Shown here piece after piece: positions 27,215-39,168 of a DNA stretch of 64,000 nucleotides; position 1 is the first letter of the stretch; each line of letters starts with the position of its first letter. Below the pieces are notes generated by a model. It had not been told where the DNA came from. It did no database searches and saw only the letters and a program-made list of their open reading frames with translations. The DNA comes from Enterococcus silesiacus (lineage in GTDB: Bacteria > Bacillota > Bacilli > Lactobacillales > Enterococcaceae), in contig CP013614.1 in assembly GCA_001465115.1 (NCBI GenBank), positions 2,294,001 through 2,358,000 of the forward strand, given 5' to 3'. The position numbers and the translations under genes were made by a program.

Positions 27215-28084
27215 TTATTTTGGATGATTTTCTATAAAATGATAGACTGCGCCGATCAGATTAGCATCATTTCCAAACTGACACGCCACTATTTCATACG
27301 TCAACTCTGTCACAGCATTTTCTAGTAAAATCCGTTTTAATTGACGATCGACCATTGGAATCAGTTGGCTATTTCCAGACACGCCACCACCGATCACGAT
27401 TCTCCCTGGATCAAAGCAGACGAGTAGATTATAAATTCCTCTTGCTACAGATGCATAAAATTTATTCAACAAGTGGCTCGCCAATTCATCTCCTGTTTCC
27501 GCTAGTTCAAACAACTCCTGCCCATCAATATTAGCGCCAGTAAGCTGGTTATATTTTTTCACACATTTTACTGAACTCCCTAAATCGCTTAATGAAGAGG
27601 ATTCATTTAACACCATATAGCCAAACTCACCACCAAATAGATTGCGACCTTTGACGAGTTTCCGATTGATCACAATTGCTCCTCCAATACCTGTGCCGAT
27701 CACAAAAAAGATCGAATTTGCAACATCACTTGCAGCTCCTAGCCAGACTTCTGCCAACGCTGCACAATTGGCATCATTTTCCATCGAAACAGGGACGTTA
27801 AATAGCTCCGTTAATTCTTTTTGTATAGGAAAATGGTGGAGGTATGGTACAGCACTAACCCCGCGAATCTTACCTTTTGCTTCATCCACTAATCCTGGTG
27901 CACTTAAGGCGACGCCTGTAATCTGTCGTTCACTCTGAATTCTATCAAAAACCTGCTTAAGTGCTATTTTCATTAGAGACCAATCTGCTGGTAAAGAGAA
28001 CGAGTCTTGTTGAACCAATTGTTCATTCACCCAAATACCATATTTCACTGAACTACCACCAATATCAAATGCTAGTATACACAT
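27215..28084 (-). CDS. bglK: ROK-family sugar kinase, probable beta-glucoside kinase
   Basis: 289-residue cytoplasmic sugar kinase. ATP site DIGGSSVKYG (about 6-15), catalytic region ENDANCAALAE with Asp about 103, and phosphate-2 motif GTGIGGAIV. The zinc motif CxCGxxGCxE of many ROK glucokinases is absent; beta-glucoside kinases (BglK of Listeria and Klebsiella, about 294 residues) also lack it. BglK puts phosphate on O6 of the non-reducing glucose of cellobiose-like sugars. The downstream position after a GH1 enzyme with a phosphate-binding loop supports this. Glucokinase or allose kinase remain alternatives. AAGGAGGA precedes the ATG. Confidence 0.8.
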   Translation of the reverse strand: MCILAFDIGGSSVKYGIWVNEQLVQQDSFSLPADWSLMKIALKQVFDRIQSERQITGVALSAPGLVDEAKGKIRGVSAVPYLHHFPIQKELTELFNVPVSMENDANCAALAEVWLGAASDVANSIFFVIGTGIGGAIVINRKLVKGRNLFGGEFGYMVLNESSSLSDLGSSVKCVKKYNQLTGANIDGQELFELAETGDELASHLLNKFYASVARGIYNLLVCFDPGRIVIGGGVSGNSQLIPMVDRQLKRILLENAVTELTYEIVACQFGNDANLIGAVYHFIENHPK

Positions 28085-28094
28085 CTTATCCTCC

Positions 28095-29594
28095 TTAATT
28101 TAACGCTTCATTCAATCGATGACAAAGTGTTTTGGTTTGATTATAAATCTCCCTATATAGTTCATAAACAGCCTGATAGCTTGCAACGGCTTCTTCATTT
28201 GGAAAATATTCTTTATCATAGACAACAAATTGTTTCGCACATTCTTTTACCGTAGCAAACCAGCCAACGCCTACTGCAGCTATCATTGCCGCCCCCAGTC
28301 CTGGCCCTTGTTCTGTTTTTAAGGTAACGATTTTTGCATTAAAAATGTCTGCTTGTATCTGCAGCCATAACTCGCTTTTTGCCCCACCACCTACAGATAC
28401 GATTTCTTGAAATTGTTTTCCTGCAATGGTTTGCATCATGACTTGTGAATCTTTTAGTGAAAATGTAATTCCTTCTAATACTGCTCGCGTAAAATCACTA
28501 ATAACATGACTCGCATCCATACCTATAAAACTACCTCTAATTTTACTGTCTACATGCGGGGTCCGTTCTCCCATGATATAAGGTGTAAAGAGTAATCCAT
28601 TTGCGCCAATCGTACTGTTTTTACTACTTGCTACTAACGCTTCAAAGGTCTGCTCCTTTGCAAAGGTTTCTCTAAACCAAGTCAGGCTTTGACCTGCAGC
28701 CAACGTGACACCCATTGAGTAATAGGTGTTTGGAATCACGTGATTGAAAAAATGCAATTTTCCTTGATAATCCTTTTCTTGTTCACCCTCATAAGAAAGA
28801 AAAACACCTGAAGTGCCAATGCTACACATCCCGCGATTTTCCTCAACGATCCCAGCCCCTAGCGCCGCACAAGCATTGTCTGCACCGCCTGCAAAAACAC
28901 ATACATCCGTTTTAAGACCTAACTCTTTAGCAAGCACTGGGTTGACCGTGCCAATATTTTCTAAAGAAGATACTAAACTCGGCAACAATGTCCGATCAAT
29001 GCCAAACGTTTCAGCTATTTCCATATCCCACTGTTTATCCATTACATTCAGTAATAAAGTACCCGCAGCATCCGAACATTCCATTTGTTGGTTTCCAGTC
29101 AGCCAAAAAGCAAGGTAATCTTTAGGCAATAAAAAGCTTTTTGCTTTTGCCCAAATTTCTGGTTCATGTTCTTTGATCCACAATATTTTTGGTAAGGTAA
29201 ACCCTTCTAAGGCTAGATTCTTTGTCTTTTCTACTAATCGTTTTCCAAGTTTTTGCGTGATTTCTTCACATTGCTTCGTGGTTCGGACATCATTCCATAA
29301 AATTGCATTTCTCAGAGGTTGCTGTTTTTCATCTAATAAGACCAAGCTATGCATTTGCCCTGAAAAGCTGATTCCCTGCAATTGTTCTTTTAACTCAGGC
29401 ATTTTAGCGATCAATTTTTTTAAAATCGTTTCTGTGGCGTGTAACCAATCAGCTGGATCTTGCTCACTATACCCTTTCTTTATATGAAATAAGGGATACG
29501 GTTCTGAAGCTTCCAATACAACAGTTCCCTTTTTATTGACAACTAATCCTTTGACTGATCCTGTTCCAAGATCGATTCCAATCACATAGGACAT
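28095..29594 (-). CDS. xylB: xylulokinase
   Basis: FGGY-family kinase that converts D-xylulose to xylulose 5-phosphate, 499 residues. N-terminal ATP site GIDLGTGSVKGLV (about 5-17), substrate loop SGQMHSLVLLD (about 75-85), FGGY signature-like YIMGERTPH in the middle and the C-terminal VSVGGGAKSELWLQIQADIF. The ATG at 29594 (MSYVIGID) has AAAGGTGG upstream and is preferred to one seven codons earlier. Inside the xyl operon it follows a cre-like site and a partial terminator and precedes bglK by ten bases. Confidence 0.95.
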   Translation of the reverse strand: MSYVIGIDLGTGSVKGLVVNKKGTVVLEASEPYPLFHIKKGYSEQDPADWLHATETILKKLIAKMPELKEQLQGISFSGQMHSLVLLDEKQQPLRNAILWNDVRTTKQCEEITQKLGKRLVEKTKNLALEGFTLPKILWIKEHEPEIWAKAKSFLLPKDYLAFWLTGNQQMECSDAAGTLLLNVMDKQWDMEIAETFGIDRTLLPSLVSSLENIGTVNPVLAKELGLKTDVCVFAGGADNACAALGAGIVEENRGMCSIGTSGVFLSYEGEQEKDYQGKLHFFNHVIPNTYYSMGVTLAAGQSLTWFRETFAKEQTFEALVASSKNSTIGANGLLFTPYIMGERTPHVDSKIRGSFIGMDASHVISDFTRAVLEGITFSLKDSQVMMQTIAGKQFQEIVSVGGGAKSELWLQIQADIFNAKIVTLKTEQGPGLGAAMIAAVGVGWFATVKECAKQFVVYDKEYFPNEEAVASYQAVYELYREIYNQTKTLCHRLNEALN

Positions 29595-29621
29595 CTTGTT
29601 CCACCTTTCTTTCAAACTAAA

Positions 29622-29635
29622 ATAAAGCGCTCACA
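29622..29635 (-). promoter_or_regulatory. cre-like CcpA site before xylB
   Basis: Minus strand TGTGAGCGCTTTAT matches 12 of 14 positions of the lactic acid bacterial cre consensus WGWAARCGYTWWMA, including the CG centre. It lies 28-41 bases before the xylB start, inside the operon, where it could act as a roadblock or serve a local promoter. Confidence 0.6.
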
Positions 29636-29646
29636 TTTTCATCAGA

Positions 29647-29690
29647 TATAAAACAGGCTGGATCAAACTCATTGAGCTTTGCTCCAGCCT
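29647..29690 (-). terminator. internal partial terminator between GH1 and xylB
   Basis: Minus-strand AGGCTGGA-CAAA pairs with TTTG-TCCAGCCT around a 13-base loop, followed by only TTTTATAT. The weak T-run suggests attenuation rather than complete stop, lowering kinase expression relative to the upstream genes. Confidence 0.7.
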
Positions 29691-29708
29691 ATTGATTTTT
29701 ACTATCGG

Positions 29709-33447
<3,739 letters not shown>

Positions 33448-33481
33448 AGAATCCTCCTCATTTAAATGCTACTAATATTCT

Positions 33482-34306
33482 TTATTTCACTGCACCATCC
33501 GAAATGCCCTTAATAATATATTTTTGTAGGAATACATAAAGAATAATGATCGGTACAATCGCTATAAACAAGGCTGCCAACGCTAAATGCCATTGTTTTG
33601 AATACTGTCCGAAGAAATAAAACATCTTCAAAGGAATCGTATACATGCCTTCTTTGTTGATAACTAAAGAAGGAAGCAAGTAGTCATTCCAAAACCAAAT
33701 TGCATTCAACACGATCACCGTAACGGTCGTTGGCTTTAATAAAGGCAAAATAATATACCAATAAATCTGGAACTTAGAAGCACCATCGATCGTTGCTGCT
33801 TCATCCAGAGATTGAGGAATACTTCTTAATGCGCCAAAATAGAGAAAAATTGCCATACTACTAGCTAACCCAAGATACATAATGACTAATCCAGGTCGGT
33901 TCAACATATTGGCTTTCCCAAAAAATGACACTAAAGGAATCATGATCGCTTGAAACGGAATCAATAAACCAATGGCAATCACAAAATACAAGGTATTACT
34001 CAATTTACTCTTATTTCTAGACAACGCATATGCTGCCATCGATGTACAAATGACAATCACAAATAAAGAAATCGCAGTAATCATAATCGAATTAAAAGCA
34101 CTTCTAAAAAAATCTAATTTTTCAAAGGCGACTGGATAATTTTCTGTTGTAAAATTTTGCGGGACATTCAACGTGTTTTTAAAAATTTCTGATTTTGTTT
34201 TAAACGAATTAACCACGATCAAATAGAATGGATATAACCACAACAGCGTTAGGATAATCCCAGCAAGTTTGATCCACAGCGCTTTTCTTTTTTTCTGCTT
34301 GATCAT
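33482..34306 (-). CDS. carbohydrate ABC permease, MalG-like
   Basis: Inner subunit of a CUT1-type sugar importer, 274 residues with six transmembrane helices. The EAA loop reads EAATIDGASKFQIYWYIILPLLKP (starting about residue 178), the contact site for the ATPase. It overlaps the preceding permease gene by four bases (ATGA). No ATPase gene follows. Confidence 0.94.
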   Translation of the reverse strand: MIKQKKRKALWIKLAGIILTLLWLYPFYLIVVNSFKTKSEIFKNTLNVPQNFTTENYPVAFEKLDFFRSAFNSIMITAISLFVIVICTSMAAYALSRNKSKLSNTLYFVIAIGLLIPFQAIMIPLVSFFGKANMLNRPGLVIMYLGLASSMAIFLYFGALRSIPQSLDEAATIDGASKFQIYWYIILPLLKPTTVTVIVLNAIWFWNDYLLPSLVINKEGMYTIPLKMFYFFGQYSKQWHLALAALFIAIVPIIILYVFLQKYIIKGISDGAVK

Positions 34307-35166
34307 AGGTCAACCTCCCGTTTTCTGGTAATACTAATTTGCACGACAGAAATCACGGCAATGATCACTAAGAAAATCACAGCTTTAGCTTGAGCATAGC
34401 CCATGTTTCTCACGGCAAAAGCTTCATTGACAATATTCATCGCGACCATTTGTGTAGAGTCAAACGGACCACCTGCGGTCAAGGCTAAATTTTGGTCATA
34501 GATTTTAAACGCATTAGACAAGGTTAAAAATAAGCTCACAGTAAACGCCGGTGCTAACATCGGAAACTTGATTTTCCAAAATGTCTGCCAAGCAGTTGCG
34601 CCATCGATTTCTGCAGCCTCGATCAATTCATCTGGGATATTGTTGATAAATGAGATATAGATGATCATAATATAACCACTCATCTGCCAGACAAATAAAA
34701 TCACCAAGCCCCAAAAACCAGTATTTGTCGTTGAAAGCCACCCTTTGAAAAACTCAATCCCTGTCGCATCTCCAATTGCTGCAAAGGCTTTGATAAAAAT
34801 AAATTGCCAGATAAAGCCTAAAATAATTCCACCAATCAAATTAGGCATAAAGAAAACTGTTCGAAATAGATTGTTCAACTTGTCTGCTTTTTGCGTAACA
34901 AGCATTGCCAATCCTAACCCGATAACATTGACTAAAATAATAGCTACGACCGAAAACTTAGTAGTAAACCAAATACTACTCAAAAAACGTTCATCTTGAA
35001 ATGCTCGAAGGTAATTTTCTAATCCTAAAAATTCACCAACTTTGATCCCATTCCAGTCTGTCATAGAATAATAAGCGCCTGTGATCAGTGGAATAAATAA
35101 AACCACTGCCATCCCAATCAAACTAGGCGCCAAAAACAACCAAAATGATTTTGATTTATTACGCAT
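34303..35166 (-). CDS. carbohydrate ABC permease, MalF-like
   Basis: Partner membrane subunit of the CUT1 importer, 287 residues with six helices. The EAA loop is EAAEIDGATAWQTFWKIKFPML (about 185-206). The N-terminus is short, as in Gram-positive MsmF-type permeases, without the extra MalF helices. AGGAGGAAA precedes the ATG. It follows the binding-protein gene after a 100-base gap that contains a strong stem-loop. Confidence 0.94.
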   Translation of the reverse strand: MRNKSKSFWLFLAPSLIGMAVVLFIPLITGAYYSMTDWNGIKVGEFLGLENYLRAFQDERFLSSIWFTTKFSVVAIILVNVIGLGLAMLVTQKADKLNNLFRTVFFMPNLIGGIILGFIWQFIFIKAFAAIGDATGIEFFKGWLSTTNTGFWGLVILFVWQMSGYIMIIYISFINNIPDELIEAAEIDGATAWQTFWKIKFPMLAPAFTVSLFLTLSNAFKIYDQNLALTAGGPFDSTQMVAMNIVNEAFAVRNMGYAQAKAVIFLVIIAVISVVQISITRKREVDL

Positions 35167-35192
35167 AATGATTTTCCTCCTTAAATGAGATC

Positions 35193-35237
35193 AGACAGCG
35201 GCAGAAACAGAGTTTCCCGATTCTGCCGGCGCTATCT
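35193..35237 (-). other. intercistronic stem-loop after the binding-protein gene
   Basis: CGGCAGAA and TTCTGCCG, extended by AGATAG/CTGTCT with a small bulge, form a strong hairpin with no T-run. Hairpins here usually protect the upstream binding-protein mRNA and raise its level over the permeases (family knowledge; inferred here). Confidence 0.7.
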
Positions 35238-35266
35238 CCAAGATATTCATTTAACTGACGAACATC

Positions 35267-36553
35267 CTACTTGCGGTCTGCTATCCACGCTTCTTTACTT
35301 GTCGTAATCAATTCATCCCATGAAATATCCCCATTCAAATATTTTTGGAATTCAGGATAAAATTGTGTTTGAGAAAAACCATCAGGGTATTGATTATGTC
35401 CCCAAGGAACCACTTTTCCATCAGATAAATAGTTGAAAATATCTTTTGACGTTGGGTCTTGAATCGAATCAGAAGAAAAATTTGTATAGGCTGGAATAAA
35501 TTCCATTTCTTCTGTGACAACTTTCATTGCTTCTTTATCCGTGTATAACCATTCTAGAAAGTCCTTGCTTGCTTCCACCACTTTTTCATCTTTATTTTTA
35601 TTTACACCCCAGTACCATGGTGCTCCTGCGGCAATTTTCCCATCCGTTTCATCTTGAACATATAGCGGCAAAATGCCAAGTTTTTCTTTCGTAAATTCTG
35701 GGTCTAAACTATTCAGTGTTGGGACGATCCAATTTCCTTGGTGCACGATCGCCACTTGATCATTGGCGAAATCTTCTTCTACAGAGGTACTATAATCTAA
35801 TGATAATATTGGTTGAACGTTATATTTATTGATTAGGTCTGTGTATTTTTTAAACTGATCACCATATTTGAAATCAATCGTTTTAGCATCATAAATTTTT
35901 TGAAGATTATTATCAAATTCTGGGGAAACAAAGTGAGCGCTATACTGGCTCACTACCCAGAATTCTTTGGCACTAAATCCAAAAACCGCTTTCATTTCTA
36001 AGTTATCTTTTTTACTGTCTAATGTCTTCACTGCCTTTTCAAAATCTTCATAAGATTTAATTGCTTCAACATCTACTCCTGCTTTTTTGAATAACTCTTT
36101 ATTGATCAAAAAGCCAAAGCCTTCAATGTTCATCGGTAAGCCATAAACTTTGCCATCCTTAGTTGCCCCATCTAAGGTACCTTCGATTGCAGTTTCAGCT
36201 AATTTGGTATCCGATAAATCAGCTAGACTGTCGCCCCATTTTTCAACATCAGCTAAACCTCCTAGAAGGAAAACACTTGGCTCATCGCCTGATGAAAACT
36301 TTGACTGCAAAGCTGCATTAGCATCTTGTCCGCCGCCAACTGTCGTCACGTTGATTTTAACCCCTTCGTGACTTGCTTCATATTTCTTAGCCAATTCATC
36401 CAGTTGATCTTTTGTTTCAACTTTGATATTGAACACATCTACTACCGCATCATCTTTTGAACCTGAATTCGAACTACCACTTCCACATGCACTCAAGAGT
36501 AAGCCTGCTGCTGCCAAAATTGTTACCGAAAAAATAAGTTTACTTCGTTTCAT
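35267..36553 (-). CDS. sugar-binding lipoprotein of ABC importer
   Basis: 428-residue family 1 extracellular solute-binding protein. It has a type II signal peptide with lipobox LLSACGSG (lipidated Cys about residue 23), a Ser/Gly linker, then a bilobed binding domain with several Trp and Tyr residues suited to oligosaccharide stacking (APWYWGVNKNKDEKV, PWGHNQYPDGFSQ). It is the second gene of the operon, directly after xylA, and feeds the two downstream permeases. Xyloglucan oligosaccharides or isoprimeverose are the inferred ligands, from the neighbouring GH31 and GH1 enzymes. Confidence 0.93.
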   Translation of the reverse strand: MKRSKLIFSVTILAAAGLLLSACGSGSSNSGSKDDAVVDVFNIKVETKDQLDELAKKYEASHEGVKINVTTVGGGQDANAALQSKFSSGDEPSVFLLGGLADVEKWGDSLADLSDTKLAETAIEGTLDGATKDGKVYGLPMNIEGFGFLINKELFKKAGVDVEAIKSYEDFEKAVKTLDSKKDNLEMKAVFGFSAKEFWVVSQYSAHFVSPEFDNNLQKIYDAKTIDFKYGDQFKKYTDLINKYNVQPILSLDYSTSVEEDFANDQVAIVHQGNWIVPTLNSLDPEFTKEKLGILPLYVQDETDGKIAAGAPWYWGVNKNKDEKVVEASKDFLEWLYTDKEAMKVVTEEMEFIPAYTNFSSDSIQDPTSKDIFNYLSDGKVVPWGHNQYPDGFSQTQFYPEFQKYLNGDISWDELITTSKEAWIADRK

Positions 36554-36574
36554 TCTTATTCCGCTCCCTTTTCT

Positions 36575-37882
36575 TTAGACTAAATAGTCGTTCAAACGTG
36601 ATTTGACATATTCCAAGTGACTAGATTCTAAGGTGACATCATCATGTTTCAAAGCATACTCTGTCAGCGTTTCTAAATTTTCTTGATCCTCGATGATTTT
36701 AGCACCGATCCCTGTTCGGTAAGATTCATAGCGTTTTTCTTTTAGCTCATCGAAGAAACGGTCTTCTTTCAATCTAGCTGCAGCTTTTAACCCTCTGGCA
36801 AAGGTATCCATTCCTGCGATATGTGCCAATAATAGATCCTCCATTTCAAAAGAAGAACGACGAACTTTTGAATCAAAATTGATACCTCCTGGAGCAATTC
36901 CACCATTTTCTAAAATCTCATACATCGCTAAAGTTGTGTCATAGATATTCGTTGGAAATTCATCTGTGTCCCAACCTAACAGGATATCTCCTTGATTGGC
37001 ATCGATTGAGCCCAATGCATCATACGTACGTGCTACTGCTAGTTCATGTTCAAATGTATGACCTGCTAAAGTTGCATGATTGGCTTCTAAATTTAATTTA
37101 AAATCATCTGTTAAATCATATTTTTGTAAAAAAGCCATCGCTGTTGCTGCATCAAAATCATATTGGTGTTTTGTTGGTTCTTTTGGTTTTGGTTCGATTA
37201 AAAATTGGATAGTGTGTCCGATTTTTTTAGAGTACGCCACAGCCATTTTGAATAAGCGGGCAATGTTGTCTTGTTCTAATTTCATGTCCGTATTCAGCAA
37301 TGATTCGTATCCTTCACGACCACCCCAGAATACATAATTTTTCCCGCCAAGTTTTTTGCTGATATCCAGTCCTTTTTTTACTTGGGCTGCCGCATACGCA
37401 AAAACTTCTGCATTATTAGAAGAAGCGGCTCCATTGGTAAAACGTGGATCTGAAAACATATTCGCTGTGTTCCATAATAATTTGATACCGGTTTCATTCA
37501 TTTTCACTTTAATCAAGTCTGTGATTTCATCTAAATTAGCAAAGAACTCTTCTAATGAATCTCCTTCTGGCGCCACATCTACATCATGGAAACAAAAGTA
37601 TTCAACATCCAGTTTAACTAATAATTCAAAGAATGCCGATACTCTATTTCTCGCAGTTTCCATTGGATCAGTTGTTTCCCAAGTACGAACATTCACTGGT
37701 TTTCCAAAAGGATCTGAACCATCTTGGGTCATAGTGTGCCAATACGCAATAGCAAAACGCAACTGTTCTTTCATCGTTTTCCCTAATACAACTTCATCTG
37801 ACTTGTAGTGACGAAATGCAAACATATTCTCTGTCTCAGTGCCTTCATAGTTTACCTTTTCTACTTGCGGAAAATAATTCAT
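36575..37882 (-). CDS. xylA: xylose isomerase
   Basis: Converts D-xylose to D-xylulose, first step of isomerase-type xylose catabolism. 435 residues, typical for the class II enzymes. Catalytic and metal residues: His in [13 protein letters not shown] (about 101), WGGREGYES, the [15 protein letters not shown] loop with Glu about 232 and Lys about 234, and [15 protein letters not shown] (about 268-282). GGAGGAA precedes the ATG. First gene of the leftward operon, under the xylO/cre promoter at 37922-37997. Confidence 0.97.
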
Positions 37883-37921
37883 CTAAATTCCTCCTATAAA
37901 TGACTTGCTTCTAGTTAGTTA

Positions 37922-37940
37922 GTAAGTTAAACTAACTTAC
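37922..37940. promoter_or_regulatory. xylO operator for XylR
   Basis: Perfect palindrome GTAAGTTA-AAC-TAACTTAC immediately downstream of the xylA -10. A second overlapping inverted repeat (AGTTAGT and ACTAACT, 7-base spacer) uses 37917-37937. It resembles the TTAGTTT/AAACTAA half-sites of known Gram-positive xylO. Binding there would block xylA transcription. Confidence 0.8.
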
Positions 37941-37946
37941 ATAAAG

Positions 37947-37997
37947 AATATAAAACAATTGAATTTAGTTGTCAAGCGCTTTCAAACATTTTATTAT
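37947..37997. promoter_or_regulatory. divergent xylA / xylR promoters overlapping at a cre site
   Basis: Minus strand (xylA): TTGACA (37970-37975), 17 bp, TATATT (37947-37952). Plus strand (xylR): TTGTCA (37969-37974), 17 bp, TATTAT (37992-37997). The two -35 boxes occupy the same bases on opposite strands. Minus-strand TGAAAGCGCTTGAC at 37971-37984 matches 12 of 14 cre consensus positions and covers both -35 boxes. Confidence 0.8.
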
Positions 37998-38019
37998 ATT
38001 TAATAAAGAGGTGGATAAA

Positions 38020-39168
38020 TTGGTAGTAAACAAATATAAAATCAGAGAGCAAAATGAATCACTCATATTAAAAGGAATCATTGACCATAAAAATATTTCC
38101 CGCGCAGAGCTTGCGGTATTAACTGGCTTGAATAAAGCTTCGGTTTCTTCTATTACTAAGACCTTGTTAGATGACGGACTTATTTTTGAAACAGGGATCG
38201 GTAATGCCAGCACACTCGGTGGCAGAAAGCCGATTTTACTGCAGTTCAATCCTAAAGCTGCATTGATTTTATCTTTTGATATCGGTGTGGATTATTTGAA
38301 AGGGACACTTGCCTATTTAGACGGTGAAGCAGTAGTCACTATTCAAAAAAAACGGATCGTAGTCTCATCGGAAACAGTTATTGCCTTACTCCAACAAAGC
38401 ATCAAGGAACTAACGGTCAAAACAGATAGCTTGATTGTAGGCATGTGTGTAGCTGTGCACGGCGTGGTAAATCAAAACGAGATCGTTTTTACCCCCTATT
38501 ATGATTTAGATACAATTGATCTTCATCAAAAGCTGTCCGATCACTTTGAATTTCCAATATTTATCGAAAATGAAGCCAACTTAGCGGCCTTGGGAGAATA
38601 TGTTTTTTCTTTAGATAGTAAAACCTTAGTTAGTTTAAGTATTCACAGTGGCATTGGTGCTGGGATTGTTGATGGAGGGATTCTAAGAAAAGGCCATTTT
38701 GGTGAAGCTGGTGAAATCGGTCATTCTATTTTATATCCAAATGGGAAGAAATGTCCTTGCGGCAACCGCGGGTGTCTGGAACAGTACGCTTCAAACTCTG
38801 TTTTATATGAAAACTTAGCCTCAATCAAAGGGTTAGAATATGTCGATTCGACCATTGTACAAAAGCTAGTCGAAAGCGACGATGAAAAAACAGCGGCTGC
38901 CCTAGCTGACAACGCCTTTCTACTAAGTATTGGAATCAACAACATTCTTACAGTGTATGATCCAGAAGTGGTTGTGATCAACAGTTCTATTTATCGCAAT
39001 AACCCTGCACTGCTATCGATGATTACAACTCATCTGACTAGCCGCTTTGCAAGAAATGTGCAAATTCAAAATAGCAAATTAGGCAGTCAAGCAACTTTAT
39101 TTGGCGGGATTGCTTTATGCTGCCAGAATTTTTTGAATATAAAAGAATTGAAACTATATTCTAACTAA
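38020..39168 (+). CDS. xylR: XylR, ROK-family xylose repressor
   Basis: 382-residue repressor. N-terminal winged helix (about 10-60; LKGIIDHKNISRAELAVLTG and KASVSSITKTLLDDG) and a ROK sugar-binding domain (DIGVDYLKG, HSGIGAGIVDGG, zinc motif CPCGNRGCLEQ). The chosen start is TTG at 38020, with AGAGGTGG properly spaced; the open frame reaches an ATG at 37969, but that lies inside the xylR promoter. It should repress the xylA operon by binding xylO and release it when xylose binds. Confidence 0.9.
   Translation: MVVNKYKIREQNESLILKGIIDHKNISRAELAVLTGLNKASVSSITKTLLDDGLIFETGIGNASTLGGRKPILLQFNPKAALILSFDIGVDYLKGTLAYLDGEAVVTIQKKRIVVSSETVIALLQQSIKELTVKTDSLIVGMCVAVHGVVNQNEIVFTPYYDLDTIDLHQKLSDHFEFPIFIENEANLAALGEYVFSLDSKTLVSLSIHSGIGAGIVDGGILRKGHFGEAGEIGHSILYPNGKKCPCGNRGCLEQYASNSVLYENLASIKGLEYVDSTIVQKLVESDDEKTAAALADNAFLLSIGINNILTVYDPEVVVINSSIYRNNPALLSMITTHLTSRFARNVQIQNSKLGSQATLFGGIALCCQNFLNIKELKLYSN

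Follow-up and report, generated by a model that had tools for sequence, protein, structure and literature searches.

Three routes of bacterial cellobiose use are well known, namely those by a beta-glucosidase, by a phosphorylase, and by a phosphotransferase system (PTS) with a phospho-glucosidase (PMC6298952). Here, we compare with described systems an operon of Enterococcus silesiacus that lies within a 64,000-nucleotide stretch of contig CP013614.1 (the window; G000:C1:2294001-2358000 of a complete genome of 3.93 Mb) and encodes an ATP-binding cassette (ABC) importer, a family 31 glycoside hydrolase (GH31), a GH1 enzyme, a sugar kinase of the ROK family, XylA and XylB. The operon kinase shares with BglK of Klebsiella pneumoniae and Listeria the ROK fold family, the lack of a zinc motif, a Tyr at the ExGH His (4htl) and a phospho-type GH1 partner, and 4htl-like ROKs in three loci (L136-L138) adjoin a GH1 resembling Gan1D and a PTS EIIC. 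However, it is only about 30% identical to BglK, under the NCBIfam equivalog cut-off, and it stands beside an ABC importer and an alpha-xylosidase, whereas the BglK systems have a PTS. K. pneumoniae BglK and S. pneumoniae BglA-2 together free the fluorophore of methylumbelliferyl (MU) glucoside in a coupled in vitro assay (PMC13264166), so kinase and phospho-hydrolase are chemically proven as a pair for other proteins; BglK has also been used for making sinigrin 6-phosphate (PMC8660893). Gan1D of Geobacillus stearothermophilus, a dual 6-phospho-beta-galactosidase/glucosidase of GH1, has the same phosphate loop as the operon GH1, with Trp beside the loop serine, but its genomic partners differ.

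Xyloside loci of Firmicutes resemble the operon in XylR control (presumed for the operon), in xylA and xylB, and in pairing an alpha-xylosidase with ABC import. A 2010 study predicted XylR regulons that include an alpha-xylosidase and ABC or PTS transporters, the loci comprising XylR, xylS and the transporters XynT, Xyn-ABC or Xyn-PTS; unlike in the operon, its accessible text mentions neither a kinase nor a phospho-GH1 for handling the glucose (PMC2873477). Similarly, a cluster of L. brevis ATCC 367 (PTS, alpha-xylosidase, xyloside transporter and sugar kinase), for which xyloglucan oligosaccharides were suggested in 2020, has an alpha-xylosidase together with a kinase that resembles BglK (34% to the K. 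pneumoniae enzyme); it differs in including a PTS, the sole 6-phospho-beta-glucosidase is not near a PTS, and the accessible part of the report describes no ABC/GH1/ROK relay (PMC7125115). The xyloglucan dextrin pathway of Ruminiclostridium cellulolyticum also takes up xylogluco-oligosaccharides and dismantles them in the cytosol, but ends in free glucose, a cellobiose phosphorylase and a GTP-dependent hexokinase (PMC8576529). Neither a relay of ABC import, ROK kinase and phospho-GH1 nor its double origin was found in the literature searched, outside which most subscription papers lie and which was available in part. All components come from known enzyme families, but their combination is little described.

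The operon and its proposed pathway

The original prediction had joined xylA, an importer, a YicI-type alpha-xylosidase, a GH1, xylB and a ROK kinase in one operon, and family searches with curated cut-offs bear this reading out. Eight head-to-tail minus-strand open reading frames (ORFs), with a largest intergenic gap of 100 bp, fill positions 27215-37882, beginning with xylA (start 37882) and ending with the ROK kinase (stop 27215); by rising coordinate the order is ROK, xylB, GH1, GH31, two BPD_transp_1 permeases, binding protein and xylA. XylA, XylB and the GH31 exceed their cut-offs (Table 1), and the GH31 matches E. coli YicI (1we5) with 912 bits. The gene set recurs in eight other genomes, six of the same genus, and is therefore not a product of chance; its order differs in Enterococcus sp. 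PF1-24, and in Vagococcus elongatus the GH1 lies on the opposite strand and the GH31 in two ORFs. Enterococcus termitis (L033) is the nearest named operon-bearing relative found (ROK 71%, GH31 86%, GH1 93%); xylA is cut at the locus edge in L033 and L034, and xylR lies beyond the locus in L033-L035. The importer, which we take to be of the CUT1 type, has a binding protein (its closest relative of solved structure, 9xor at 213 bits, is deposited as maltose-binding protein) and two permeases. The operon lacks an ATPase gene; one MalK/MsmK-type ATPase domain is encoded elsewhere in the genome (G000:C1:3722432), presumably shared with this importer.

We favour, with moderate confidence, a pathway in which ABC import is followed by xylose removal, phosphorylation of the exposed glucose O6 by the ROK kinase, and cleavage by the GH1. 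The operon, probably under XylR control, would serve small xylose-decorated cello-oligosaccharides, from isoprimeverose to XXXG-type oligomers. The binding protein and permeases would import the unphosphorylated sugar with energy from the shared ATPase, and the GH31 would then strip the alpha-1,6 xylose at the non-reducing end, freeing the O6 of that glucose. The kinase would transfer the phosphate of ATP to this O6 while the glucose is still beta-linked, and the GH1 would release glucose 6-phosphate, exposing the next xylosyl-glucose. XylA and XylB would channel xylose to the pentose phosphate route, and the last free glucose would go to an ordinary glucokinase, so that XXXG should yield three xylose, three glucose 6-phosphate and one glucose. 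The order of the middle steps would follow because xylose occupies O6; xylose off before phosphate on is a clear order-of-reaction prediction. Because the operon is without a GH42, galactosylated pieces would need another enzyme. In the genome, GH42 gave two partial matches (35-40 bits) and no clear beta-galactosidase, and GH5 gave 14 weak matches, mostly to ORFs of GH1 length, and no clear endoglucanase.

The phosphate loop foreseen for the GH1 (S-x6-K-x-Y) is present as S432-x6-K439-x-Y441, with W433 after the Ser as in Gan1D; the acid/base is E170 and the nucleophile E378, the roles being those of the family. Its best solved relative is Gan1D (4ze4; 738 bits over full length, with an identical 15-residue phosphate-loop stretch), followed by two 6-phospho-beta-galactosidase/-galactobiosidase entries (736 and 735 bits). 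LacG (1pbg) scores 294 bits, and plain beta-glucosidases reach at most 355 bits apart from three entries at 411-441 bits, namely 8in1, an ancestral reconstruction and a pyruvylated galactosidase. The Ser, Lys and Tyr are kept in every Gan1D-type GH1 (at least 50%) among those printed, including those in alpha-xylosidase loci. We propose that the enzyme acts on 6-phospho substrates only, and since an ABC importer does not phosphorylate, a kinase is needed if the imported sugar is to be its substrate. Close relatives of this GH1 occur in two of the 398 genomes of the phylum sample, its own counted.

The kinase has no helix-turn-helix (HTH), and its missing zinc motif had been read as a mark of BglK. 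The absence itself holds, as CxCGxxGC is lacking here and present in another ROK of the same genome; as proof of BglK it was discarded, because NanK of F. nucleatum and of S. aureus is also without the zinc site (PMC5458393). According to the same source, F. nucleatum NanK (FnNanK) retains the ExGH His and 4htl has Tyr155, and 4htl is called a NanK there and a beta-glucoside kinase in its PDB entry. In an alignment of 68 ROKs, this His is replaced by Tyr in nine of nine window-type ROKs and by Met or Leu in the 13 ROKs of a second set of loci, and is kept in FnNanK and in the glucokinase of the genome. The operon ROK carries the narrower BglK mark, no zinc motif together with Tyr as in L. monocytogenes BglK (4htl); the Tyr also occurs in the uncharacterised 2gup (153 bits to the operon ROK). 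In the ROK tree, 4htl groups with L136-L138 (support 100), and the operon ROK falls in a separate set of 19 rows (support 99). An own-genome paralogue (L160:6453-7331, G000:C1:306452-307309; 46% identical, Leu at the ExGH His) lies in a neighbourhood conserved in four genomes with ClpX- and EngB-like genes (named by eye). Another relative, 61% identical, is found on a contig labelled Clostridia bacterium beside a BCCT transporter and sporulation genes (L036:10001-10867); no GH1, GH31 or sugar genes were seen near it, and it was treated as an exception.

GH1 and ROK genes in other genomes

A search of 395 Lactobacillales genomes with the GH31 gave 61 matches, spread over 56 of them; every one of these neighbourhoods was inspected, and GH1 and ROK presence was scored by tblastn within 7.5 kb of the GH31. 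A Gan1D-type GH1 and an HTH-less ROK occurred together in 19 loci, the GH1 alone in six, the ROK alone in five and neither in 31 (Fisher p 2e-6), and among the 33 loci with ABC permeases the respective counts were 18, 1, 2 and 12 (p 3e-6), relatedness being ignored in both tests. With one row per genus and pattern, the association persisted for all loci (9/5/4/17, p 0.012) and for ABC loci (8/1/1/9, p 0.001). The 24 loci with a XylP-like GPH transporter have a GH1 in two cases and a ROK in two. Three of the GH1-only loci contain an EIIC (L168, L183, L190), in L182 and L184 the GH1 lies on the other strand at distances of 4.6 and 7.0 kb, and L170 has neither feature. Among ROK-only loci, L191 carries a different GH1 with a phospho-type SKRYGF loop, and L194 and L198 contain a gene of a fucosidase cluster. 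One genome (G083, L165) keeps the operon without both GH1 and ROK.

The 19 loci with both genes divide into two sets. The window type comprises six of the 61 loci plus L041, L158 and L159 from other searches (nine in total). The second set consists of 13 loci in seven genera, with ABC permeases in 12, GH42 in 10 and GH5 in six (that of L193 carrying CBM46 and CBM_X2), and by gene content these look like complete xyloglucan systems. Union of the two ROK sets in a single clade was rejected (p-AU 6e-45, quick tree). The second-set GH1s, 12 of 13 of which are included in the GH1 tree, form with the GH1s of four GH31 loci that have an EIIC or neither a branch (support 100) apart from the window-type GH1s, and the GH31s of the two sets also lie apart. 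ROK and GH1 were thus probably brought together on two or more occasions, by members of different clades, and assembly from different stock argues for a working partnership. The pathway logic of the original prediction gains support from this second pairing; it fits all that was seen, including the joint occurrence of GH1 and ROK in ABC-type loci, and has to be amended in that the GH1 is not dedicated to the operon.

The amendment comes from seven genomes of the same genus (L112-L118), in which the same site holds an oxidoreductase, the GH1 and a LysM gene (L115 and L117 differ further out). None of xylR, xylA, the ABC genes, GH31, xylB and ROK was found at this site; the best ROKs of these genomes are 45-47% identical, and none of them has a GH31 match at 1e-200. 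C-terminal GH31 remnants lie directly upstream of the GH1 in L112, L115, L116 and L117, with tblastn E values between 6e-27 and 9e-12; in L114 a remnant was recognised at the nucleotide level alone (E 1.5e-9), and none was seen in L113 and L118. Remnants beside an intact GH1 indicate that the operon was lost, and the GH1 kept, in at least five of the seven. A possible XylR fragment in L116 (14 residues, E 0.086) was too weak to be used. In the five of these seven genomes that were measured, the retained GH1 has a ratio of nonsynonymous to synonymous substitution (dN/dS) of 0.02-0.05, and dS exceeds 1 in four of them. Purifying selection thus acts on the GH1 even where the kinase is gone, and it must have further substrates, which probably come from a PTS. 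Gan1D-type GH1s often adjoin a PTS EIIC (40-odd neighbourhoods), as does a second one in this genome (L152), 67% identical to that of the operon.

Whether Lactobacillales have, at least twice, assembled a further cytosolic route for cello- and xyloglucan-oligosaccharides from a zinc-less ROK and a phospho-GH1, gated by an alpha-xylosidase, seems to us an evenly balanced question. If so, BglK-like kinases would gain a physiological role, and cellobiose would have, beside the three known routes, one in which a kinase feeds a phospho-glucosidase behind an ABC importer. Such a route would explain phosphate-loop GH1 enzymes in non-PTS operons and would provide a function for many ROK kinases whose present annotation is just 'sugar kinase'.

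Several side observations concern these loci. L194 and L198 combine an alpha-xylosidase and a ROK with a GH29-type fucosidase, to which L198 adds a GDSL esterase and an alpha/beta hydrolase, and a locus of this type is possibly for acetylated, fucosylated xyloglucan. A PTS EIIC lies beside GH31/GH1 in L167, L168, L183, L185, L190 and L204; four reference proteins detected no EIIA or EIIB in these stretches, and detected one or the other in L136, L138 and L142, not in L137. It would be unusual for an EIIC without such partners to work with a ROK kinase. In V. elongatus (L167, also L037), an in-frame stop divides the GH31, and the GH1, on the opposite strand, is next to the EIIC.

Alternative explanations

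Part of the evidence weighs against the proposed pathway. Its kinase step, phosphorylation of O6 on an oligosaccharide, is an inferred specificity, and the kinase shares the Tyr of Listeria BglK but falls short in overall similarity: NF042998 (BglK), the best NCBIfam match, gives 188 bits against an equivalog cut-off of 550, a cut-off that Listeria-type ROKs grouping with 4htl also miss (398-426 bits), and FnNanK (5nck, 152 bits) is nearly as similar as 4htl (154 bits). The GH1 scores best with the beta-glucosidase model TIGR03356 (435 bits, below the cut-off of 478.5) and gives 340-398 bits with 6-phospho-beta-galactosidase/glucosidase models whose cut-offs are 561-686. NCBIfam naming settles neither protein, as cut-offs are missed on both sides. 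In an independent-pairs test on the GH31 tree (10 pairs), three pairs were for and one against ROK accompanying GH1 (median p 0.625), and counting ROK or EIIC gave four to none (p 0.125, not significant); by phylogeny-aware statistics, the association is suggestive, not proven. In V. elongatus the GH1 is on the strand of the EIIC, not of the xyl operon. The GH1 is intact without kinase or importer in the seven sister genomes, this genome has 42 PTS_EIIC matches, and PTS sugars may be the main diet of the enzyme.

The last of these points lead to a reading in which the operon is mainly for isoprimeverose or similar alpha-xylosides, the GH31 yielding free xylose and glucose, the ROK being a second glucokinase for the latter and the GH1 a bystander acting on PTS-delivered sugars. 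The 12 ABC-type loci with importer and GH31 but neither GH1 nor ROK imply that the core can work alone, and both the survival of the GH1 after operon loss and the many EIICs agree with this. Set against it is the separate glucokinase of the genome (L001; TIGR00744 346 bits, cut-off 260), which gives free glucose its own enzyme, whereas the operon ROK scores 141 bits on that model and has neither the ExGH motif with the glucokinase His nor the zinc loop. A ROK serving glucose would also be expected in loci lacking the GH1, yet among ABC-type loci it was seen in 2 of 14 without GH1 and in 18 of 19 with it. We consider this reading rather unlikely.

It is quite improbable, in our judgement, that the GH1 is an ordinary beta-glucosidase acting on dexylosylated oligosaccharides, with the ROK phosphorylating glucose afterwards and the phosphate loop merely inherited. 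The top NCBIfam model points that way, and a relative (L200) even passes its cut-off (482 bits vs 478.5); however, the loop residues are intact in the Gan1D-type GH1s of alpha-xylosidase loci noted above, and the closest tested enzyme, Gan1D, is a phospho-glycosidase. The near-equal similarity of the ROK to FnNanK and 4htl, together with the existence of zinc-less NanKs (PMC5458393), would allow a kinase for another sugar (e.g. N-acetylmannosamine, N-acetylglucosamine or an unknown by-product) located here by chance or for another purpose. Such a kinase is very improbable: NanK models remain far under their cut-offs (106 vs 283 and 93 vs 450 bits), FnNanK keeps the His that the operon ROK lacks, and linkage to GH1 recurs among ROK relatives at large, where 28 of 75 loci have a GH1, of whatever type, no more than 3 kb away, compared with 18 of 352 control ORFs taken from these loci (79 loci, less four without a ROK ORF).

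Control region and feature coordinates

Upstream of xylA, the -35 element is formed by the end of a cre-like (catabolite-responsive) element and is followed by the -10 element TATATT and, right after it, by a palindrome proposed as the XylR operator (Table 1). The promoter scan returned 46 sites vs 37.7 in shuffles. A similar palindrome stands at the same place in seven of the seven upstream regions printed, and the cre-like box is near-identical in five of them and weaker in L167 and L041; a strict cre pattern had no match at this box, its sole match being inside xylA. The xylR gene, for a ROK regulator with a winged-helix part, is divergent from the operon; its TTG start at 37969, which overlaps the promoter elements, is probably too early. 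Control by XylR and CcpA is the natural reading of these motifs.

Table 1. Coordinates of the operon genes, xylR and control elements in the window
Feature	Position	Strand	Evidence
ROK sugar kinase, HTH-less, BglK-like; proposed kinase for non-reducing glucose O6	27215..28084	-	PF00480 164 bits
xylB, xylulokinase; start codon uncertain	28095..29615	-	TIGR01312 625 bits, above cut-off 380
Gan1D-type GH1, proposed 6-phospho-beta-glucosidase	29709..31145	-	PF00232 558 bits
YicI-type GH31 alpha-xylosidase	31162..33447	-	NF007940 1209 bits, above cut-off 606
ABC sugar permease, MalG side	33482..34306	-	PF00528 96 bits
ABC sugar permease, MalF side	34303..35166	-	PF00528 81 bits
Extracellular sugar-binding lipoprotein	35267..36553	-	PF13416 102 bits
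xylA, xylose isomerase	36575..37882	-	TIGR02630 711 bits, above cut-off 533
Palindrome, proposed XylR operator, directly downstream of -10	37914..37940	-	inverted repeat
Operon promoter-like TTGACA-17-TATATT	37947..37975	-	11/12 matches, top site of scan
xylR, ROK-family repressor	37969..39168	+	PF00480 181 bits; MarR_2 weak
cre-like element TTGAAAGCGCTTGACA, overlaps -35	37970..37985	-	recognised by eye

Beside BglK-like ROKs, a second GH1 subtype was observed, with Asn for the phosphate-loop Lys (SWxNAYRNRY). It occurs in L045 (7544-8962), L038, L040, L044, L046, L057, L063, L068, L087, L101 and L104, and for the L045 enzyme, the only one used in a search, the nearest entries are 4b3k ('beta-glucosidase') and 5foo ('6-phospho-beta-D glycosidase').

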